A stretch of 9,424 nucleotides of DNA. Origin: Clostridia bacterium. GTDB lineage: Bacteria; Bacillota_A; Clostridia; Christensenellales; Aristaeellaceae. Below are positions 1,606 through 6,444 of the stretch, one piece after another. The first letter of the stretch is position 1, and each line of letters starts with the position of its first letter. Made by a program: the position numbers and the translations under genes. The notes under the pieces are model-generated. The model was not told where the DNA came from, made no database searches, and worked only from the letters and a program-made list of their open reading frames with translations. The stretch is taken from positions 1 to 9,424 of the forward strand of contig JAFQOY010000176.1 in NCBI GenBank assembly GCA_017412025.1, read 5' to 3'.

Positions 1606-2733
1606 TTATGCCCTCGCGCCGGCCACGGCATACAGCAGGATGCCCGCCGCAACAGAGGCGTTCAGCGAATCGATATGGCCCTTCATCGGCAGGGACACCA
1701 GCTTGTCGCAGCTCTCCCTCACCAGGCGGGAAATGCCCTCGCCCTCGGAGCCGATGACGATCGCCGCCGCGCCGGAGAAGTTCACCTTTCGATAATCCTC
1801 TCCGTTCATCGCCGCGCCGTAAATCCAGATTCCTTCCTTCTTCAGGCGCTCAATCAGCCGGGTCAGGTTCGTCTCCTTCGCCACCGGCATGTATTCCACC
1901 GCGCCGGCGCTCGACTTCACAGCCGCCGGCGTCAGGCCCACGGCCCTGCGCTCCGGAATGATCACGCCGTGCGCACCCGCGCACTCCGCGCTGCGGATGA
2001 TCGCGCCCAGATTGTGCGGATCGGTCACGCCGTCAAGGATCACCAGCAGCGGCGCTTCTCCGCGCTCCTTCGCCAGCGCCAGCATATCGTCGACCGTCTT
2101 GTAGCTGTACGCGCTCGCCACCGCGATCAGGCCCTGATGATTGGGCGCCATCTGGTCAAGGCGTGTGCGGTCAACCTCCTGCACCACGATCTTCGCATCC
2201 CTGGCCATCGCCACGATTTCTCTGGCGGAGCCGATCAGCTCGCCCCGGGCAACCAGCAGCTTTTCGATGTCGCGTCCGGCGCGCAGCGCCTCGCGGATCG
2301 GATTGCGTCCGACAAGCAGGTTGTTTTCCAGTTCCTCCTCGCGCGCAGGCGGCGGAGTCTGCACGCGCACATCGCCAACGCGCTCCTCACGGCGCTGCGG
2401 CCGCGGGCCGCCAAAGGCCGGGCGCTCGCCATAGGGCTTCTTCTCGCCATACTCGCAGCGCTCGCCGTAGGGCTTCTTCTCGCCGTACTCGCGGCGCTCC
2501 CCATAGGGCTTCTTTTCGCCGTACTCGCGGCGCTCCCCATAAGGCTTCTTCTCGCCGTAGGGCTTCTTTTCGCCGTACTCGCGGCGCTCCCCGTAGTTCT
2601 TCCTCTCGCCATAGCGGCGCTCGGTCGGCGCAGCCATATCGCCATCACGCGCCGGGCGGCGGGTCAGCTCGTCGTCGCGCCAGTCATCGCGCTTGCTCTG
2701 CGGCTTTTTCGTGAAGCTGTCATAGTATGCCAT
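1606..2733 (-). CDS. rlmB: 23S rRNA 2'-O-ribose methyltransferase RlmB/TrmH family with repeat-rich N-terminal tail
   Basis: A 375-residue SPOUT (TrmH/SpoU) RNA methyltransferase, the YacO/RlmB type that methylates the ribose of a conserved 23S rRNA guanosine (G2251 in E. coli). The substrate-binding domain begins near NLLVGRNPIREAL (138-150). The catalytic knot motifs are DPHNLGAIIRSAE (238-250), IVIGSEGEGISR (325-336) and LPMKGHIDSLNASVAAGILLY (348-368). Usual family length is about 245-250 residues; the extra ~130 at the N-terminus is low-complexity. It includes 11 tandem hexads of type YGE(R/K)(R/K)X at residues 41-106, flanked by charged and Pro-rich linkers. The tail is probably disordered, basic and RNA-contacting (inference). 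The start has AGAGGG 6 nt upstream. It lies 143 nt after thyX and 3 nt before rae1. Confidence 0.93.
   Translation of the reverse strand: MAYYDSFTKKPQSKRDDWRDDELTRRPARDGDMAAPTERRYGERKNYGERREYGEKKPYGEKKPYGERREYGEKKPYGERREYGEKKPYGERCEYGEKKPYGERPAFGGPRPQRREERVGDVRVQTPPPAREEELENNLLVGRNPIREALRAGRDIEKLLVARGELIGSAREIVAMARDAKIVVQEVDRTRLDQMAPNHQGLIAVASAYSYKTVDDMLALAKERGEAPLLVILDGVTDPHNLGAIIRSAECAGAHGVIIPERRAVGLTPAAVKSSAGAVEYMPVAKETNLTRLIERLKKEGIWIYGAAMNGEDYRKVNFSGAAAIVIGSEGEGISRLVRESCDKLVSLPMKGHIDSLNASVAAGILLYAVAGARA
2416..2613 (-). repeat. In-frame tandem repeat encoding 11 hexapeptides in RlmB
   Basis: Eleven back-to-back 18-nt units encode YGERKN, YGERRE, YGEKKP and variants, ending in YGERPA and a degenerate FGG. 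Units mostly alternate YGERRE and YGEKKP, which makes a 36-nt higher-order period. One ERCE unit and two adjacent EKKP units break the pattern. Near-identical DNA copies suggest expansion by slippage or recombination, so copy number may vary between strains. Confidence 0.95.
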
Positions 2734-2876: not shown

Positions 2877-3602
2877 TCACGCCAGCGAAGCGTGTCTCTT
2901 TTTGATCTCTCCGGCCCTGCCGCAGGAGGCCTTCCCCTCCGGGCATGCGCCTCGCAGGCACGACGGACCGGCATTTTCAAACAGCGCCGGCGCCGCTTTG
3001 CGGCACTCTCTGAGCATCTGCCAGGCCATCTCACGGATCTCCCACTGCGCACGGCTGCAGCAGCGCAGCTCAAAGAAGTGCATCAGCTCGCGTGCGTTCA
3101 TCGTCACCAACAGGCGGGTCGCAGCCGCATTGGGCAGCACGAAGCGCGCATCCTCGTTGGATTTCTCCTTTGCTCCGCCCAGCTTTTCCTGCCACTGGCA
3201 GTACCATGCATGCATCGTATCCATCTGCCGGATAAACTCTTTTTCCTCCTCCTCGCCAAGCGCGGAGATGGACGGCGGAATCACATAGTCAAATCCATCC
3301 GCCATGGACACATAGCGCTGGCTCTGCACGGAGAAGGACGCAATGCGGTGGCGCGTCAGCTGCGCCAGCAGCGCGCGGGATACGCCCTCCACCGCAAAGG
3401 TGAAGCTCGCATGCTCCGTCACCGACAGATGCCCCCGCTCCATCACCCGCGCGACAAATTCCTGCTGATCCGACGCCTCCACGCGCTCGCGAAGGCTTTC
3501 CACATCCGCCTGCGCATAGCACAGACGCGCGCCCAGCGCCACAATCTCATCGGCGTCCGGCGTCGCGCGCAGCAGGATTACCTTGAGGTTTGCTTTTGCC
3601 AT
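2877..3602 (-). CDS. thyX: FAD-dependent thymidylate synthase ThyX
   Basis: A 241-residue flavin-dependent thymidylate synthase that makes dTMP from dUMP with methylene-tetrahydrofolate and NADPH. The ThyX signature RHRx7S is present as R84-H85-R86 to S94 (RHRIASFSVQS). Also visible are the conserved GHLSVTEHASFTF (57-69) and the C-terminal MHFFELRCCSRAQWEIR block (174-190). The tail carries three cysteines (C215, C220, C227) in NAGPSCLRGACPEGKASCG, a form I associate with clostridial ThyX proteins. The first 25 nt overlap the end of mrnC, and GGAGG sits 4 nt before the ATG, so translation of the two genes is coupled. Length is normal for the family. Confidence 0.96.
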   Translation of the reverse strand: MAKANLKVILLRATPDADEIVALGARLCYAQADVESLRERVEASDQQEFVARVMERGHLSVTEHASFTFAVEGVSRALLAQLTRHRIASFSVQSQRYVSMADGFDYVIPPSISALGEEEEKEFIRQMDTMHAWYCQWQEKLGGAKEKSNEDARFVLPNAAATRLLVTMNARELMHFFELRCCSRAQWEIREMAWQMLRECRKAAPALFENAGPSCLRGACPEGKASCGRAGEIKKRHASLA

Positions 3603-4024
3603 ATATCCTCCGTCTTTTCAAGCGCCATTTTCACCAGCGTATCCAGCCGCTGCGTCTGTCCCGTCAGATACAGGTAGCCCCACAGCGCCTCCAGCCCCGT
3701 CGCATGGGCGTAGTCCGCCGGATCGGCGTGCTTCGGGGCCGCATGCTTGGCCTGGCTGTTGCGTCCGCGCCTGGCGATATCCGCCTCGTCCGCATCAAGC
3801 AGCGGCTCAATCGCTTCCAGCATCCTCGCCTGCGCATAGGCGCTGACCATCCGCACCGCCTGCTTATGCATCTTTCCAACCGTCATCCCGCGGGATACCA
3901 GCATGCTGCGCACATACAGATCGTGAATCGTATCGCCGACATATGCCAGCTGCAGCGGATTGAGTTCCTTCGTATCGCGCACGGCAAAGGCGTCGTGCGC
4001 CGCATTGATCTCCTGTGTAAGCAA
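3578..4024 (-). CDS. mrnC: Mini-ribonuclease III (MrnC)
   Basis: A 148-residue RNase III-like catalytic domain without a dsRNA-binding domain. Mini-III trims 23S rRNA precursor ends in Bacillota. The signature QLAYVGDTIHDLYVRSML (25-42) contains the catalytic Asp (D31). RRGRNS (85-90) and the second acidic block ATGLEALWGYLYL (108-120, E112) follow, in the same order and spacing as B. subtilis MrnC (143 residues). The start is TTG: an in-frame TGA lies five codons upstream (4039-4037), no ATG is available before the domain, and GAGGAAG sits 7 nt before the TTG. It is the first gene of the mrnC-thyX-rlmB-rae1-sigH operon. In many relatives cysS precedes it; here an amidase does. Confidence 0.92.
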   Translation of the reverse strand: MLTQEINAAHDAFAVRDTKELNPLQLAYVGDTIHDLYVRSMLVSRGMTVGKMHKQAVRMVSAYAQARMLEAIEPLLDADEADIARRGRNSQAKHAAPKHADPADYAHATGLEALWGYLYLTGQTQRLDTLVKMALEKTEDIWQKQTSR

Positions 4025-4175: not shown

Positions 4176-4982
4176 TTACCCGCCGGTTTCCTCGCCGCTT
4201 CTGTCAACCGCCTCAAGCGGCTTCGGACGCTCCCCCGGCAGCGCCGCCCAGTCGCACACCCCCTGCACAATGCCCTGCGCCACGCGCTGCCTGTACGCAT
4301 CGCTGAGCAGCAGTTCCTCCTCCTCCCTGTTAGACAAAAAACCGCATTCCACCAGCACGCCCGGTATTCCAAACGTCAGGATATAGTAATCTCCGCCCAG
4401 CGCTTCTCTCTCCTTCCTGGGCTGAAGCTGCCGGACCATCGCCGTCTGCACCGCCCCCGCCAGCAGCCGGCCCGCCGGGCAGCCCTCGCGGTAGAATACC
4501 TGCGGTCCGCTCTGGCTGCGTCCAGCGTATTCATTCATGTGGATGGAGAGCAGCAGATCCGCGCCGCCGCCCATGACGATCGCCGCTCTCCGCTGCATAT
4601 CCTGCAGCTTCCTGCGGATCGGCGGATTGTCGTCGCACAGCGCGTAATCATCCGTGCGCGTCATGATCACCTCCGCGCCCTTTTCAAGCAGCAGCTCCCG
4701 AACCTTGACCGCCACATCCAGATTCAGCCCCTTTTCCGGCACGCCGCTCACCCGGCCGACCGCACCGCCGTCGTATCCGCCGTGCCCGGCGTCCACCGCA
4801 ATGCGCATTCCGTTCAGTACGCCTGCATATTCCTCTCCTGCCGCCGTCTCCTGAGCAGCTCCGCCGGCAAATGTGCGCACGGCACTGTCCCCCGCGCAGA
4901 AAAGCAGCATCGCGGAGCACATCGCCGTCACCCCCAGCAGCAGCCTCGCATGCAGCTTCACCCGATCTATCGTTCCTTTCAT
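4176..4982 (-). CDS. cwlD: N-acetylmuramoyl-L-alanine amidase, CwlD-like (Amidase_3)
   Basis: A 268-residue zinc amidase that cuts the bond between N-acetylmuramic acid and the stem peptide of peptidoglycan. Residues 1-30 form a signal or membrane anchor (basic MKGTIDRVKLHARLLLG, then a hydrophobic stretch), so the enzyme acts outside the membrane. The Amidase_3 domain runs about 59-243: H67 in VDAGHGG, E84 in EKGLNLD and H148 in SIHMN are the zinc ligands, and E212 in VECGFLSN is catalytic. Size and lack of cell-wall-binding repeats resemble B. subtilis CwlD, which makes muramic-lactam in spore cortex; the specific CwlD role is inferred. The start at 4982 is preferred because GAGGGGAGG lies 10 nt upstream. 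An in-frame ATG at 5057 lacks a ribosome binding site. Upstream DNA is the DnaA-box cluster; a terminator follows. Confidence 0.88.
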   Translation of the reverse strand: MKGTIDRVKLHARLLLGVTAMCSAMLLFCAGDSAVRTFAGGAAQETAAGEEYAGVLNGMRIAVDAGHGGYDGGAVGRVSGVPEKGLNLDVAVKVRELLLEKGAEVIMTRTDDYALCDDNPPIRRKLQDMQRRAAIVMGGGADLLLSIHMNEYAGRSQSGPQVFYREGCPAGRLLAGAVQTAMVRQLQPRKEREALGGDYYILTFGIPGVLVECGFLSNREEEELLLSDAYRQRVAQGIVQGVCDWAALPGERPKPLEAVDRSGEETGG

Positions 4983-4992
4983 TGATGCGCCG

Positions 4993-5001
4993 CCTCCCCT
5001 C
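4993..5001 (-). promoter_or_regulatory. Ribosome binding site deciding the amidase start
   Basis: GAGGGGAGG on the minus strand, 10 nt before the ATG at 4982-4980. The alternative ATG at 5057 has only TTGTGAAACC upstream, with no Shine-Dalgarno. Starting at 4982 also puts the basic/hydrophobic anchor exactly at the N-terminus. Confidence 0.75.
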
Positions 5002-5080
5002 ACGCAGGCATATGCGCCGTATCCCGCCGCTATGCCCGAAAGGCGGAAATATTCCATATGGTTTCACAATCTTCATCCGG

Positions 5081-5110
5081 AACAAATAAATGTTACAAAT
5101 CTTTTTCACA
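5081..5110. other. AT-rich stretch beside the DnaA-box cluster
   Basis: By direct count 24 of 30 bases are A or T, against strongly GC-rich surroundings. It abuts the leftmost DnaA-box-like sequence. It could act as an unwinding element or simply as the upstream region of the amidase promoter. No clear DnaA-trio (repeated TAG/TAA-type triplets) was seen. Confidence 0.4.
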
Positions 5111-5280
5111 GGTTTTCCCCGCTTGCCAACAGGTTTTCCCCAGTTATCCCCAAACTTATCCACATTTGTTTTCCAATGAAAATCCAGCTTTTTCCGACTT
5201 CTTCACGGGGTTATCCACAATTGTCCACAGGACATTTCGCGACATTTGTGGACAATTCTTGATAACATATGTTTTCCACA
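5102..5280. promoter_or_regulatory. Cluster of DnaA boxes between tsaD and the amidase gene
   Basis: Compared with the DnaA box TTATCCACA, the plus strand has perfect copies at 5156-5164 and 5211-5219. One-mismatch copies are TTATCCCCA 5144-5152, TTGTCCACA 5221-5229 and TTTTCCACA 5272-5280 on plus, and TTGTCCACA 5255-5247 on minus. Weaker plus-strand copies are TTTTTCACA 5102-5110, TTTTCCCCG 5113-5121 and TTTTCCCCA 5134-5142. Starts at 5102, 5113, 5134, 5144 and 5156 step by 11, 21, 10 and 12 bp, and 5211/5221 by 10 bp, close to helical phasing. The stretch has no gene of its own. It lies between the tsaD terminator and the amidase start, so it also occupies the amidase upstream region; no clear sigma-A promoter was found in it. 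Confidence 0.85.
5108..5141 (+). repeat. Direct repeat ACAGGTTTTCCCC, two copies
   Basis: The 13-mer ACAGGTTTTCCCC occurs at 5108-5120 and 5129-5141, start-to-start 21 bp (two helical turns). Each copy contains a degenerate DnaA-box-like TTTTCCCC, and they form the left part of the DnaA-box cluster. Confidence 0.85.
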
Positions 5281-5287
5281 GCCCGGC

Positions 5288-5344
5288 AAAAAGCAAAAAC
5301 CGCCGCCTATTATTACAAATCTGTAATATATAAGCAACGGTTTT
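5288..5344 (-). terminator. Long intrinsic terminator after tsaD
   Basis: On the minus strand AAAACCG (5344-5338) pairs perfectly with CGGTTTT (5302-5296). The stem continues inward through G-U/G-C/A-T pairs with one bulged A, to perfect arms TATTACA (5328-5322) and TGTAATA (5317-5311) around the loop GATT: about 22 pairs in all. The transcript then reads U, GC, UUUUU (5295-5288). It starts about 40 nt after the tsaD stop and closes the secA-prfB-tsaD transcription unit. The symmetric stem could also stop plus-strand transcription, though no plus-strand gene needs it. Confidence 0.88.
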
Positions 5345-5368
5345 GTCATATTCGTACACGCAGTATCC

Positions 5369-5388
5369 TGATTTCCCAGCCGAAATCA
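5369..5388 (-). other. Hairpin over the tsaD stop codon
   Basis: TGATTTC and GAAATCA form perfect 7-bp arms around the 6-nt loop GGCTGG; the first arm begins with the tsaD TGA stop. No T-run follows. It may protect the mRNA 3' end or be incidental. Confidence 0.35.
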
Positions 5389-6444
5389 CACCAGGCGCAG
5401 CGACGGCGTCGCATTGAGATCAAGCGATGCTATTTCCCCCCGCATCAGGCGGTAAAATCCCGCGCTGCCAATCATCGCTGCGTTATCCGTGCACAGAATC
5501 GGAGGCGGCATCACCAGACGGATTCCGGCTTTCTGGCATTTGTCGTTCATGGTGTTGCGAAGGCCGGAGTTGCTCGCCACGCCGCCGGCCATGGCCATCA
5601 CCCTTGCACCGGTCTCCTTCGCCGCCAGCACGGCCTTATCTGTCAGCAATTCCACCGCAGCATGCTGAAAACTCGCCGCAATGTCCGCCGCAGGCACGTC
5701 CTGTCCGTTCTGCCTGAGCTTGTGGACGGTGTTGATCAGCGCCGTCTTCAACCCGGAAAAGCTGTAGTCATATCTTCCCGGCGTCTGCACGTGCGGCAGC
5801 TTCAGCGCATGCGGATTTCCCTCGCGGCTGAGCTTGTCCAGCAGCGGACCGCCCGGATACGGCAGCCCCAGCACGCGCGCCGCCTTGTCAAACGCCTCTC
5901 CGGCCGCATCGTCCATCGTCTGTCCCAGCAGGGTATACACCCCGTAATCCTCCACGCGCACGATGTGCGAATGACCGCCGGAGGCGACAAGGCAGACAAA
6001 CGGCGGCTCAAGATCCCTGTGCGCGATGTAGTTCGCGCTGACATGCCCTTCGATGTGGTTCACCGGGATCAGCGGCTTGCCCGCCGCATAGGCCAGCGCC
6101 TTCGCCGCCGATACGCCAATGAGCAGCGCGCCGACCAGCCCCGGCCCGTACGTCACCGCAACAGCGTCCACGTCTGCGAGGGTCATGTCCGCCTTTTTGA
6201 GGCATTCGTCAATCACCGGATCGATGCTCTCCACGTGCTTGCGGGAGGCAATCTCCGGCACGACGCCGCCGTACATCGCATGCAGTGGAATCTGAGATGA
6301 TATGATGGATGACACCACCTCGCGGCCATCCTTTACAATCGCCGCCGCCGTTTCATCGCAGCTGGATTCAATAGCCAGAATGGTCGCATGCCCGCTTTCG
6401 CGAAGGCGCTGCACCTGCTGCTCCACACTCTGCTTGTAGTTCAT
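5386..6444 (-). CDS. tsaD: tRNA N6-threonylcarbamoyladenosine transferase TsaD
   Basis: A 352-residue Kae1/TsaD (formerly Gcp) protein. It transfers threonylcarbamoyl from threonylcarbamoyl-AMP to A37 of ANN-decoding tRNAs, with TsaB and TsaE (not in this window). The ASKHA ATP-binding start LAIESSCDETAAAI is at 23-36. Metal ligands are H130 and H134 (NHIEGHVSANY) and D320 (TDNAAMIG). SGGHSH (155-160) and GGVASNSGLR (287-296) are also conserved. About 20 residues precede the usual start, giving a short charged N-terminal extension. The chosen ATG is supported by AAGGAG inside the end of the preceding gene. Only 1 nt separates the two genes, so translation is coupled. It is the last gene before a strong terminator. 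Confidence 0.96.
   Translation of the reverse strand: MNYKQSVEQQVQRLRESGHATILAIESSCDETAAAIVKDGREVVSSIISSQIPLHAMYGGVVPEIASRKHVESIDPVIDECLKKADMTLADVDAVAVTYGPGLVGALLIGVSAAKALAYAAGKPLIPVNHIEGHVSANYIAHRDLEPPFVCLVASGGHSHIVRVEDYGVYTLLGQTMDDAAGEAFDKAARVLGLPYPGGPLLDKLSREGNPHALKLPHVQTPGRYDYSFSGLKTALINTVHKLRQNGQDVPAADIAASFQHAAVELLTDKAVLAAKETGARVMAMAGGVASNSGLRNTMNDKCQKAGIRLVMPPPILCTDNAAMIGSAGFYRLMRGEIASLDLNATPSLRLV

Follow-up and report, generated by a model that had tools for sequence, protein, structure and literature searches.

Why should the gap behind a tsaD gene be crowded with DnaA boxes, and does such a crowd mark a chromosomal origin of replication (oriC), a promoter region under DnaA control, or a dedicated locus that binds DnaA away from the origin? 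The stretch that raises the question, called the window here, comprises 9,424 nucleotides of contig JAFQOY010000176.1 (assembly GCA_017412025.1, Clostridia bacterium, Aristaeellaceae), and its box cluster lies between tsaD and a gene for a CwlD-like amidase. Considering the window together with its relatives, we think it likely that the cluster is a non-origin group of DnaA boxes that restrains re-initiation, and the counterpart of the cluster found 3' of gcp in Bacillus subtilis; gcp we take to be the old name of tsaD, and the window protein matches the model gcp_kae1.

Within one mismatch, the DnaA box TTATCCACA occurs seven times in the whole window, and six of the seven copies fall inside the 137 bp from 5144 to 5280, five of these six strong boxes of the gap sharing one orientation (Table 1). 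Over 200 dinucleotide shuffles the count averaged 0.88 boxes and did not exceed 4, so that seven was never reached: several DnaA boxes stand between genes here, beyond chance. The first-pass annotation, made from the letters alone, had claimed two perfect and four one-mismatch boxes in this interval, weaker copies out to 5102 and a density far above chance, and all three points hold in our mismatch scan and its control. The weaker copies, with two to three mismatches, extend the series toward cwlD, the starts 5102, 5113, 5123, 5134, 5144 and 5156 following one another in steps of 11, 10, 11, 10 and 12 bp, or about one helical turn per site. Three-mismatch sites alone mean little, and the same scan also gives the out-of-register positions 5169, 5199, 5236 and 5246; the weak-box stretch is recognisable by eye in an alignment of 14 elements. 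The box array spans 5102-5280 and the whole element about 5091-5344.

All results on conservation and position rest on the genomes of relatives. A TsaD search yielded 80 loci in GTDB genomes, mostly metagenome-assembled genomes (MAGs), with TsaD up to 94% identical to that of the window and with Clostridia bacterium, Clostridiales bacterium and Candidatus Ventricola as the closest relatives. By a rule of three boxes with gaps under 150 bp, a cluster lies 3' of tsaD in 24 of the 29 loci whose TsaD is at least 75% identical, a comparison of flanks that the first-pass annotation had proposed, and no other cluster was found by the same rule in the 80 loci. The five exceptions among the closest loci are L005, L007, L013, L018 and L020: the sequence of L018 stops 148 bp past tsaD, and the genomes of L007, L013 and L020, like genome G060, have boxes upstream of cwlD at places where the available DNA contains no tsaD. 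The tie of the cluster to tsaD is strong, though not absolute.

The tie extends across the phylum. An even draw of 139 genomes was made from the phylum of G053, a relative with TsaD 80% identical to the window's; 136 of these have TsaD at an E-value of 1e-60 or better, and the 3' flank of all 136 was taken. Three or more boxes lay within 250 bp of one another, inside the 1 kb that follows tsaD, in 91 of the 136 genomes, with four or more boxes in 68 and at least one perfect box in 90 of the 91 positive flanks (the sole one without, G243, being at least one likely chance case that passes the rule). Permuted 9-mers (n=40) gave on average 0.12 positive flanks of 136 and at most 4, shuffling each of the first 69 flanks 20 times gave 0/1380, and the 1 kb 5' of tsaD gave none in 29 (29 of the 136 genomes being covered). 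Four flanks were shorter than 1 kb (G255, G267, G290, G332), that of G216 begins inside tsaD (a partial match), and the 1 kb limit misses sites further off in G220, G236, G280 and G346, at 2.1-3.2 kb. The proposal that linkage of a DnaA-box cluster to tsaD may be conserved across Bacillota is upheld in these 91 of 136 sampled genomes of the phylum, and for B. subtilis by PMC4447404.

The plan of the sites recurs as well as their place. Of 467 boxes in positive flanks, 418 share one direction with respect to tsaD, and neighbours of that direction follow each other most often in steps of 9 bp (83), 12 bp (46) and 42-45 bp (59). Many flanks share a core made of a box ending GA, an abutting pair TGTGGATAATGTGGATAA, three bases and a TGTTAATAA-like site. 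An 18-mer in which two boxes abut is found, allowing up to one mismatch, in 101 of the 139 genomes, and the pattern read backwards was found once; among 150 listed sites (86 genomes), 66 lie within 1 kb 3' of tsaD (55 genomes), 64 of those 66 on the tsaD strand, and four more lie at 2.1-3.2 kb. One place, mostly one orientation and recurring spacings across the phylum argue for selection on the cluster, and from place and plan we infer that the B. subtilis and sampled clusters may share common descent. The gene that follows is of many kinds, encoding Lgt, a radical SAM protein, 5-FTHF cyclo-ligase, a Mur ligase or MoeA, or in other cases being a convergent gene for an ABC-F C-terminal domain or a TsaD-fold gene (ten proteins were scanned for this typing, one being without a family and one under its cut-off); therefore the cluster is not tied to any single downstream gene. 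In G334 and G319 the convergent ABC-F-type gene after the cluster resembles the gcp/ydiF junction of B. subtilis, YdiF being an ABC-F protein.

What such a cluster might do is best judged from B. subtilis. The first-pass annotation had pointed to a DnaA-titrating cluster next to gcp, and this proves to be DnaA region 4, which lies downstream of gcp and of ydiF and has 10 sites (PMC4447404). Its Kd is given as 0.15 uM with ATP and 0.33 with ADP (PMC4447404, Smith and Grossman), and the DNA bound at 55 nM differed 16-fold in favour of ATP-DnaA (PMC4447404). Removal of the six B. subtilis non-oriC clusters leads to early initiation (PMC5295017, PMC13220808), which is partly relieved by re-adding one cluster (PMC5295017). 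Because the gcp cluster binds DnaA and the removal of six clusters brings initiation forward, the best reading of the window's cluster is a DnaA reservoir homologous, or at least equivalent, to the gcp cluster: like the latter it has many intergenic boxes directly 3' of tsaD, in the same place, and away from oriC in relatives, while unlike gcp/ydiF the next gene in the window is a co-oriented cwlD-like one. DnaA, probably in its ATP form, would occupy the spaced strong boxes and then spread to the weak ones, which recur about once per helical turn; the cluster would withdraw active DnaA from oriC, and its doubling at fork passage would restrain re-initiation. Neighbours of the B. subtilis DnaA regions in Table 1 of PMC4447404 include gcp, ywlC, trmE and yydA, and this paper was the only one found in our literature search to treat DnaA, gcp and ydiF together. 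In the library searched, no paper joined DnaA and DnaA boxes with tsaD, and none named a DnaA box cluster together with gcp and B. subtilis; a prior report of gcp-cluster conservation is possible. The four neighbours just named correspond to tsaD, tsaC, mnmE and rlmH, all RNA-modification genes.

The number of boxes and a neighbouring AT-rich stretch, seen by eye beside a hairpin 3' of tsaD, resemble an oriC, and clustered boxes of the same consensus are what a Bacillota oriC offers; that the cluster is the chromosomal oriC or part of a split origin is nonetheless highly improbable. In the relatives tested the cluster is, unlike an oriC, neither beside dnaA nor at the GC-skew minimum. G053, with a 3.97 Mb contig in a near-complete genome of about 4.2 Mb, has sampled GC skew that is positive at 0.2-2.0 Mb and negative beyond, starting at 2.2 Mb; within its first 200 kb the cumulative skew is lowest at 60-65 kb, where boxes are found at 61.9-62.1 and 64.8 kb, and dnaA lies at 16 kb, whereas tsaD lies at 2.83 Mb, 1.2 Mb from the skew minimum. 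Over 15 cluster-bearing chromosomes, each on one or nearly one contig (G319 was dropped, its dnaA being on another contig), the distance from tsaD to dnaA, or in G053 to the skew minimum instead, is 0.20-0.73 of a half chromosome (median 0.37); five chromosomes without a cluster by the rule have tsaD at 0.21-0.50. That dnaA marks the origin is assumed here, and G053 shows that this may err by tens of kb. Most dnaA loci have boxes of their own, at least four being present at 25 of 29 dnaA loci from 28 relatives and at 4 of 7 further ones. The dnaA loci L083, L084, L085, L107, L143 and L144 have fewer than three boxes in the available DNA, and oriC may lie away from dnaA in those lineages. The one arrangement that favours an origin is an outlier, the MAG locus L002 (G002:C18), in which dnaA and tsaD are about 20 kb apart on one contig of 73,720 bases, through either a rearrangement or an assembly error. 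The first-pass annotation had named oriC and a dedicated DnaA-binding locus together; the dedicated locus is favoured, and oriC identity was rejected for the relatives on skew and distance.

The boxes are framed by further conserved parts. Between them and tsaD stands a hairpin with a T-rich stretch after it on the tsaD strand, a probable terminator, which was not among the predictions of a consensus terminator scan; it would probably end tsaD transcription and keep RNA polymerase off the complex. Within it lies a palindrome, TTACnnnnnnGTAA, and a TTAC(4-8)GTAA core of this kind is present in 16 of 34 flanks examined (five of the 34 being without a cluster). In 14 of the 16 core-bearing loci TGTAAC or CGTAAC stands 227-230 bp from the core, the two exceptions being L014 (249) and L021 (203 and 214); this near-fixed spacing holds although 14 aligned elements (L014 and L021, with their other spacing, having been dropped) average only 61% identity, and the background of TGTAACA/TGTTACA is 0.05 per kb on average over the 80 loci. 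Across 12 sequences, changes on both sides occur in 12 of 22 hairpin pairs (mean 7.8 in shuffles, 5 of 500 being as high), a count favoured by drawing the structure from the window sequence and by dropping L279 and L280, whose outer stem looked decayed; the share of alignment cells that pair is 85.6%, compared with 77.5% for shuffles and 35-48% after sliding. Judged by eye, the outer stem seems to be lost and the TTAC-GTAA core kept in L279 and L280, which lie away from tsaD, while L282 keeps both, which suggests, from only three loci, that the outer stem is the tsaD terminator and the core part of the element. TGTAACA was rejected as a general companion of DnaA sites: it seems to be tied to the tsaD site, since 23 of the 25 dnaA loci that were scanned lack it, the others being L145 (one copy, about 1.9 kb from the boxes) and L108 (four). 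An RNA element was likewise rejected, there being no Rfam match in 4900-5500 at E-values up to 1.

This near-fixed geometry, the covarying hairpin and the mixture of strong and weak boxes would also suit a site of the datA/DARS kind, which would change whether DnaA carries ATP or ADP rather than only bind it, helped by a putative partner protein at TGTAACA and under control of tsaD read-through, and we regard this as decidedly unlikely. B. subtilis is not known to have a datA/DARS-like activity. PMC13220808 describes Hda and IHF homologues as absent from B. subtilis, whereas datA promotes DnaA-ATP hydrolysis in an IHF-dependent manner (PMC5295017, PMC10950094). The Escherichia coli datA is likewise a non-origin DnaA-box cluster behind a terminator, placed 3' of a tRNA-related unit and tuned by read-through of glyV-X-Y (tRNA-Gly) transcription (PMC10950094); unlike the window's cluster it is not at tsaD.

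Several observations weigh against a reservoir tied to tsaD. Among the loci with TsaD 63-69% identical, 47 of 51 have no cluster 3' of tsaD and 4 have one (L034, L042 and L075 of the 51 offering under 1 kb downstream), and in the survey 45 of 136 genomes have no cluster in that 1 kb, 31 having no box at all. The B. subtilis effect is strong only when all six clusters are gone (PMC5295017). Perfect boxes number 28, 10, 20, 9 and 17 genome-wide in G002, G014, G020, G023 and G053, and form 12 groups (at least two perfect boxes in 500 bp), some as dense: three upstream of dnaA, one at tsaD (G053) and eight elsewhere. Since eight of the 12 are elsewhere, the site at tsaD belongs to a small set of clusters, as it does in B. 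subtilis, and is not everywhere the strongest; against the first-pass annotation's refuting condition of many equally dense clusters elsewhere, perfect boxes in these five relatives show few, not many. In G006, G012, G018 and G060, finally, the cluster lies upstream of cwlD and the available DNA contains no tsaD (G006 having only 516 bp of upstream DNA available). With the position of the window's cluster directly upstream of cwlD, these genomes are what recommends another explanation, that the cluster serves transcription control, either of cwlD, as a promoter region governed by DnaA, or of tsaD, as a regulator. We hold this to be unlikely, as the next gene varies across the phylum and convergent ones need no promoter there, so that a cwlD promoter is disfavoured as the general role; moreover, six cluster-bearing relatives have no cwlD match at an E-value of 1e-15 genome-wide, and no sigma-70-like promoter was found in 4900-5500 by a scan that does not cover sporulation promoters.

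Table 1. Features of the element and its flanking genes (window coordinates)
Feature	Position	Strand	Basis
cwlD-like N-acetylmuramoyl-L-alanine amidase, downstream neighbour	4176..5057	-	TIGR02883 169 bits, cut-off 221.55
Distal TGTAACA motif	5091..5097	-	229 bp from hairpin core
Four weak boxes, starts 5134, 5123, 5113, 5102	5102..5142	+	2-3 mismatches, steps 10-11 bp
DnaA box, 1 mismatch (TTATCCCCA)	5144..5152	+	mismatch scan
DnaA box, perfect, head of phased array	5156..5164	+	mismatch scan
DnaA box, perfect	5211..5219	+	mismatch scan
DnaA box, 1 mismatch (TTGTCCACA), 10 bp from next	5221..5229	+	mismatch scan
DnaA box, opposite orientation, 1 mismatch (TTGTCCACA)	5247..5255	-	mismatch scan
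DnaA box, 1 mismatch (TTTTCCACA)	5272..5280	+	mismatch scan
Hairpin directly 3' of tsaD, then T-rich on tsaD strand (probable terminator)	5296..5344	-	fold -25.1 kcal/mol, z -5.6
Palindrome TTACnnnnnnGTAA within hairpin	5313..5326	.	eight outer letters invariant in 12 sequences (window + 11 relatives)
tsaD (gcp), upstream neighbour	5386..6444	-	TIGR03723 432 bits, E 1e-129; TIGR00329 gcp_kae1 342 bits

The two flanking genes had been named correctly at first pass, tsaD by its TIGR03723 match and the amidase as CwlD-like, with TIGR02883 as its best model at a score below the cut-off. On the minus strand the window reads secA, prfB, a TIGR01906-like membrane protein (scoring under the model cut-off) beside tsaD, tsaD, a gap of 328 bp, the cwlD-like gene, a putative mrnC, thyX, rlmB, a putative yacP and sigH. 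The genes after the cwlD-like gene and after rlmB are without NCBIfam match and are putatively mrnC and yacP, respectively. Ten window proteins were scanned against NCBIfam, and among the eight with a family match none was DnaA or DnaN. A cwlD-like gene is the downstream neighbour in the window and in 16 of the 80 relatives' loci. The RlmB-like protein (window 2400-2700, minus strand) has an N-terminal repeat run of the GERREYGEKKPYGE kind, and thyX and the end of the gene before it share 25 bases (window 2877-3602 and 3578-4024), a pair kept in many of the closest relatives.

Elsewhere in the relatives, G053:C3:191277-191445 holds seven boxes, of which one is perfect, and lies about 130 kb from the skew minimum; G053:C3 2968648-2968801, near 2.97 Mb, holds four, two of them perfect; and G014:C28:4762-4814 and G023:C30:35170-35312 have three perfect boxes each. 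There seems to be a second recurrent site of abutting boxes. Of the 84 listed 18-mer sites not within 1 kb 3' of tsaD, 45 were inspected (44 loci), and comFC adjoins the abutting boxes in 15 of the 44 loci; the second site, by comFC, csp or hpf, is proposed because at least one of comFC, hpf and a cold-shock gene stands there in 22 of the 44, a count made without a chance control and including four loci that supplied queries. The 22 loci are L248, L249, L252-L256, L261, L262, L264, L265, L268-L270, L273, L275, L276, L373, L378, L379, L381 and L382.

A bolder proposal, possible though doubtful in our judgement, is that all these parts belong to one ancient, Bacillota-wide element, with tsaD terminator hairpin, registered boxes, weak array and, in this clade, TGTAACA sites that bound it and would take a partner, that works as a switch between DnaA-loaded and cleared states set by tsaD read-through, and that acts jointly with a sister site at comFC-csp-hpf. 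If this were true, tsaD read-through would couple translation capacity to initiation, much as tRNA-Gly transcription tunes datA. Two loci, the 3' flank of tsaD and comFC-csp-hpf, can be named for study in cultured members, and their comparative anatomy may serve as a basis for asking if titration of DnaA is all that sites of this kind do or if they alter its state as well.
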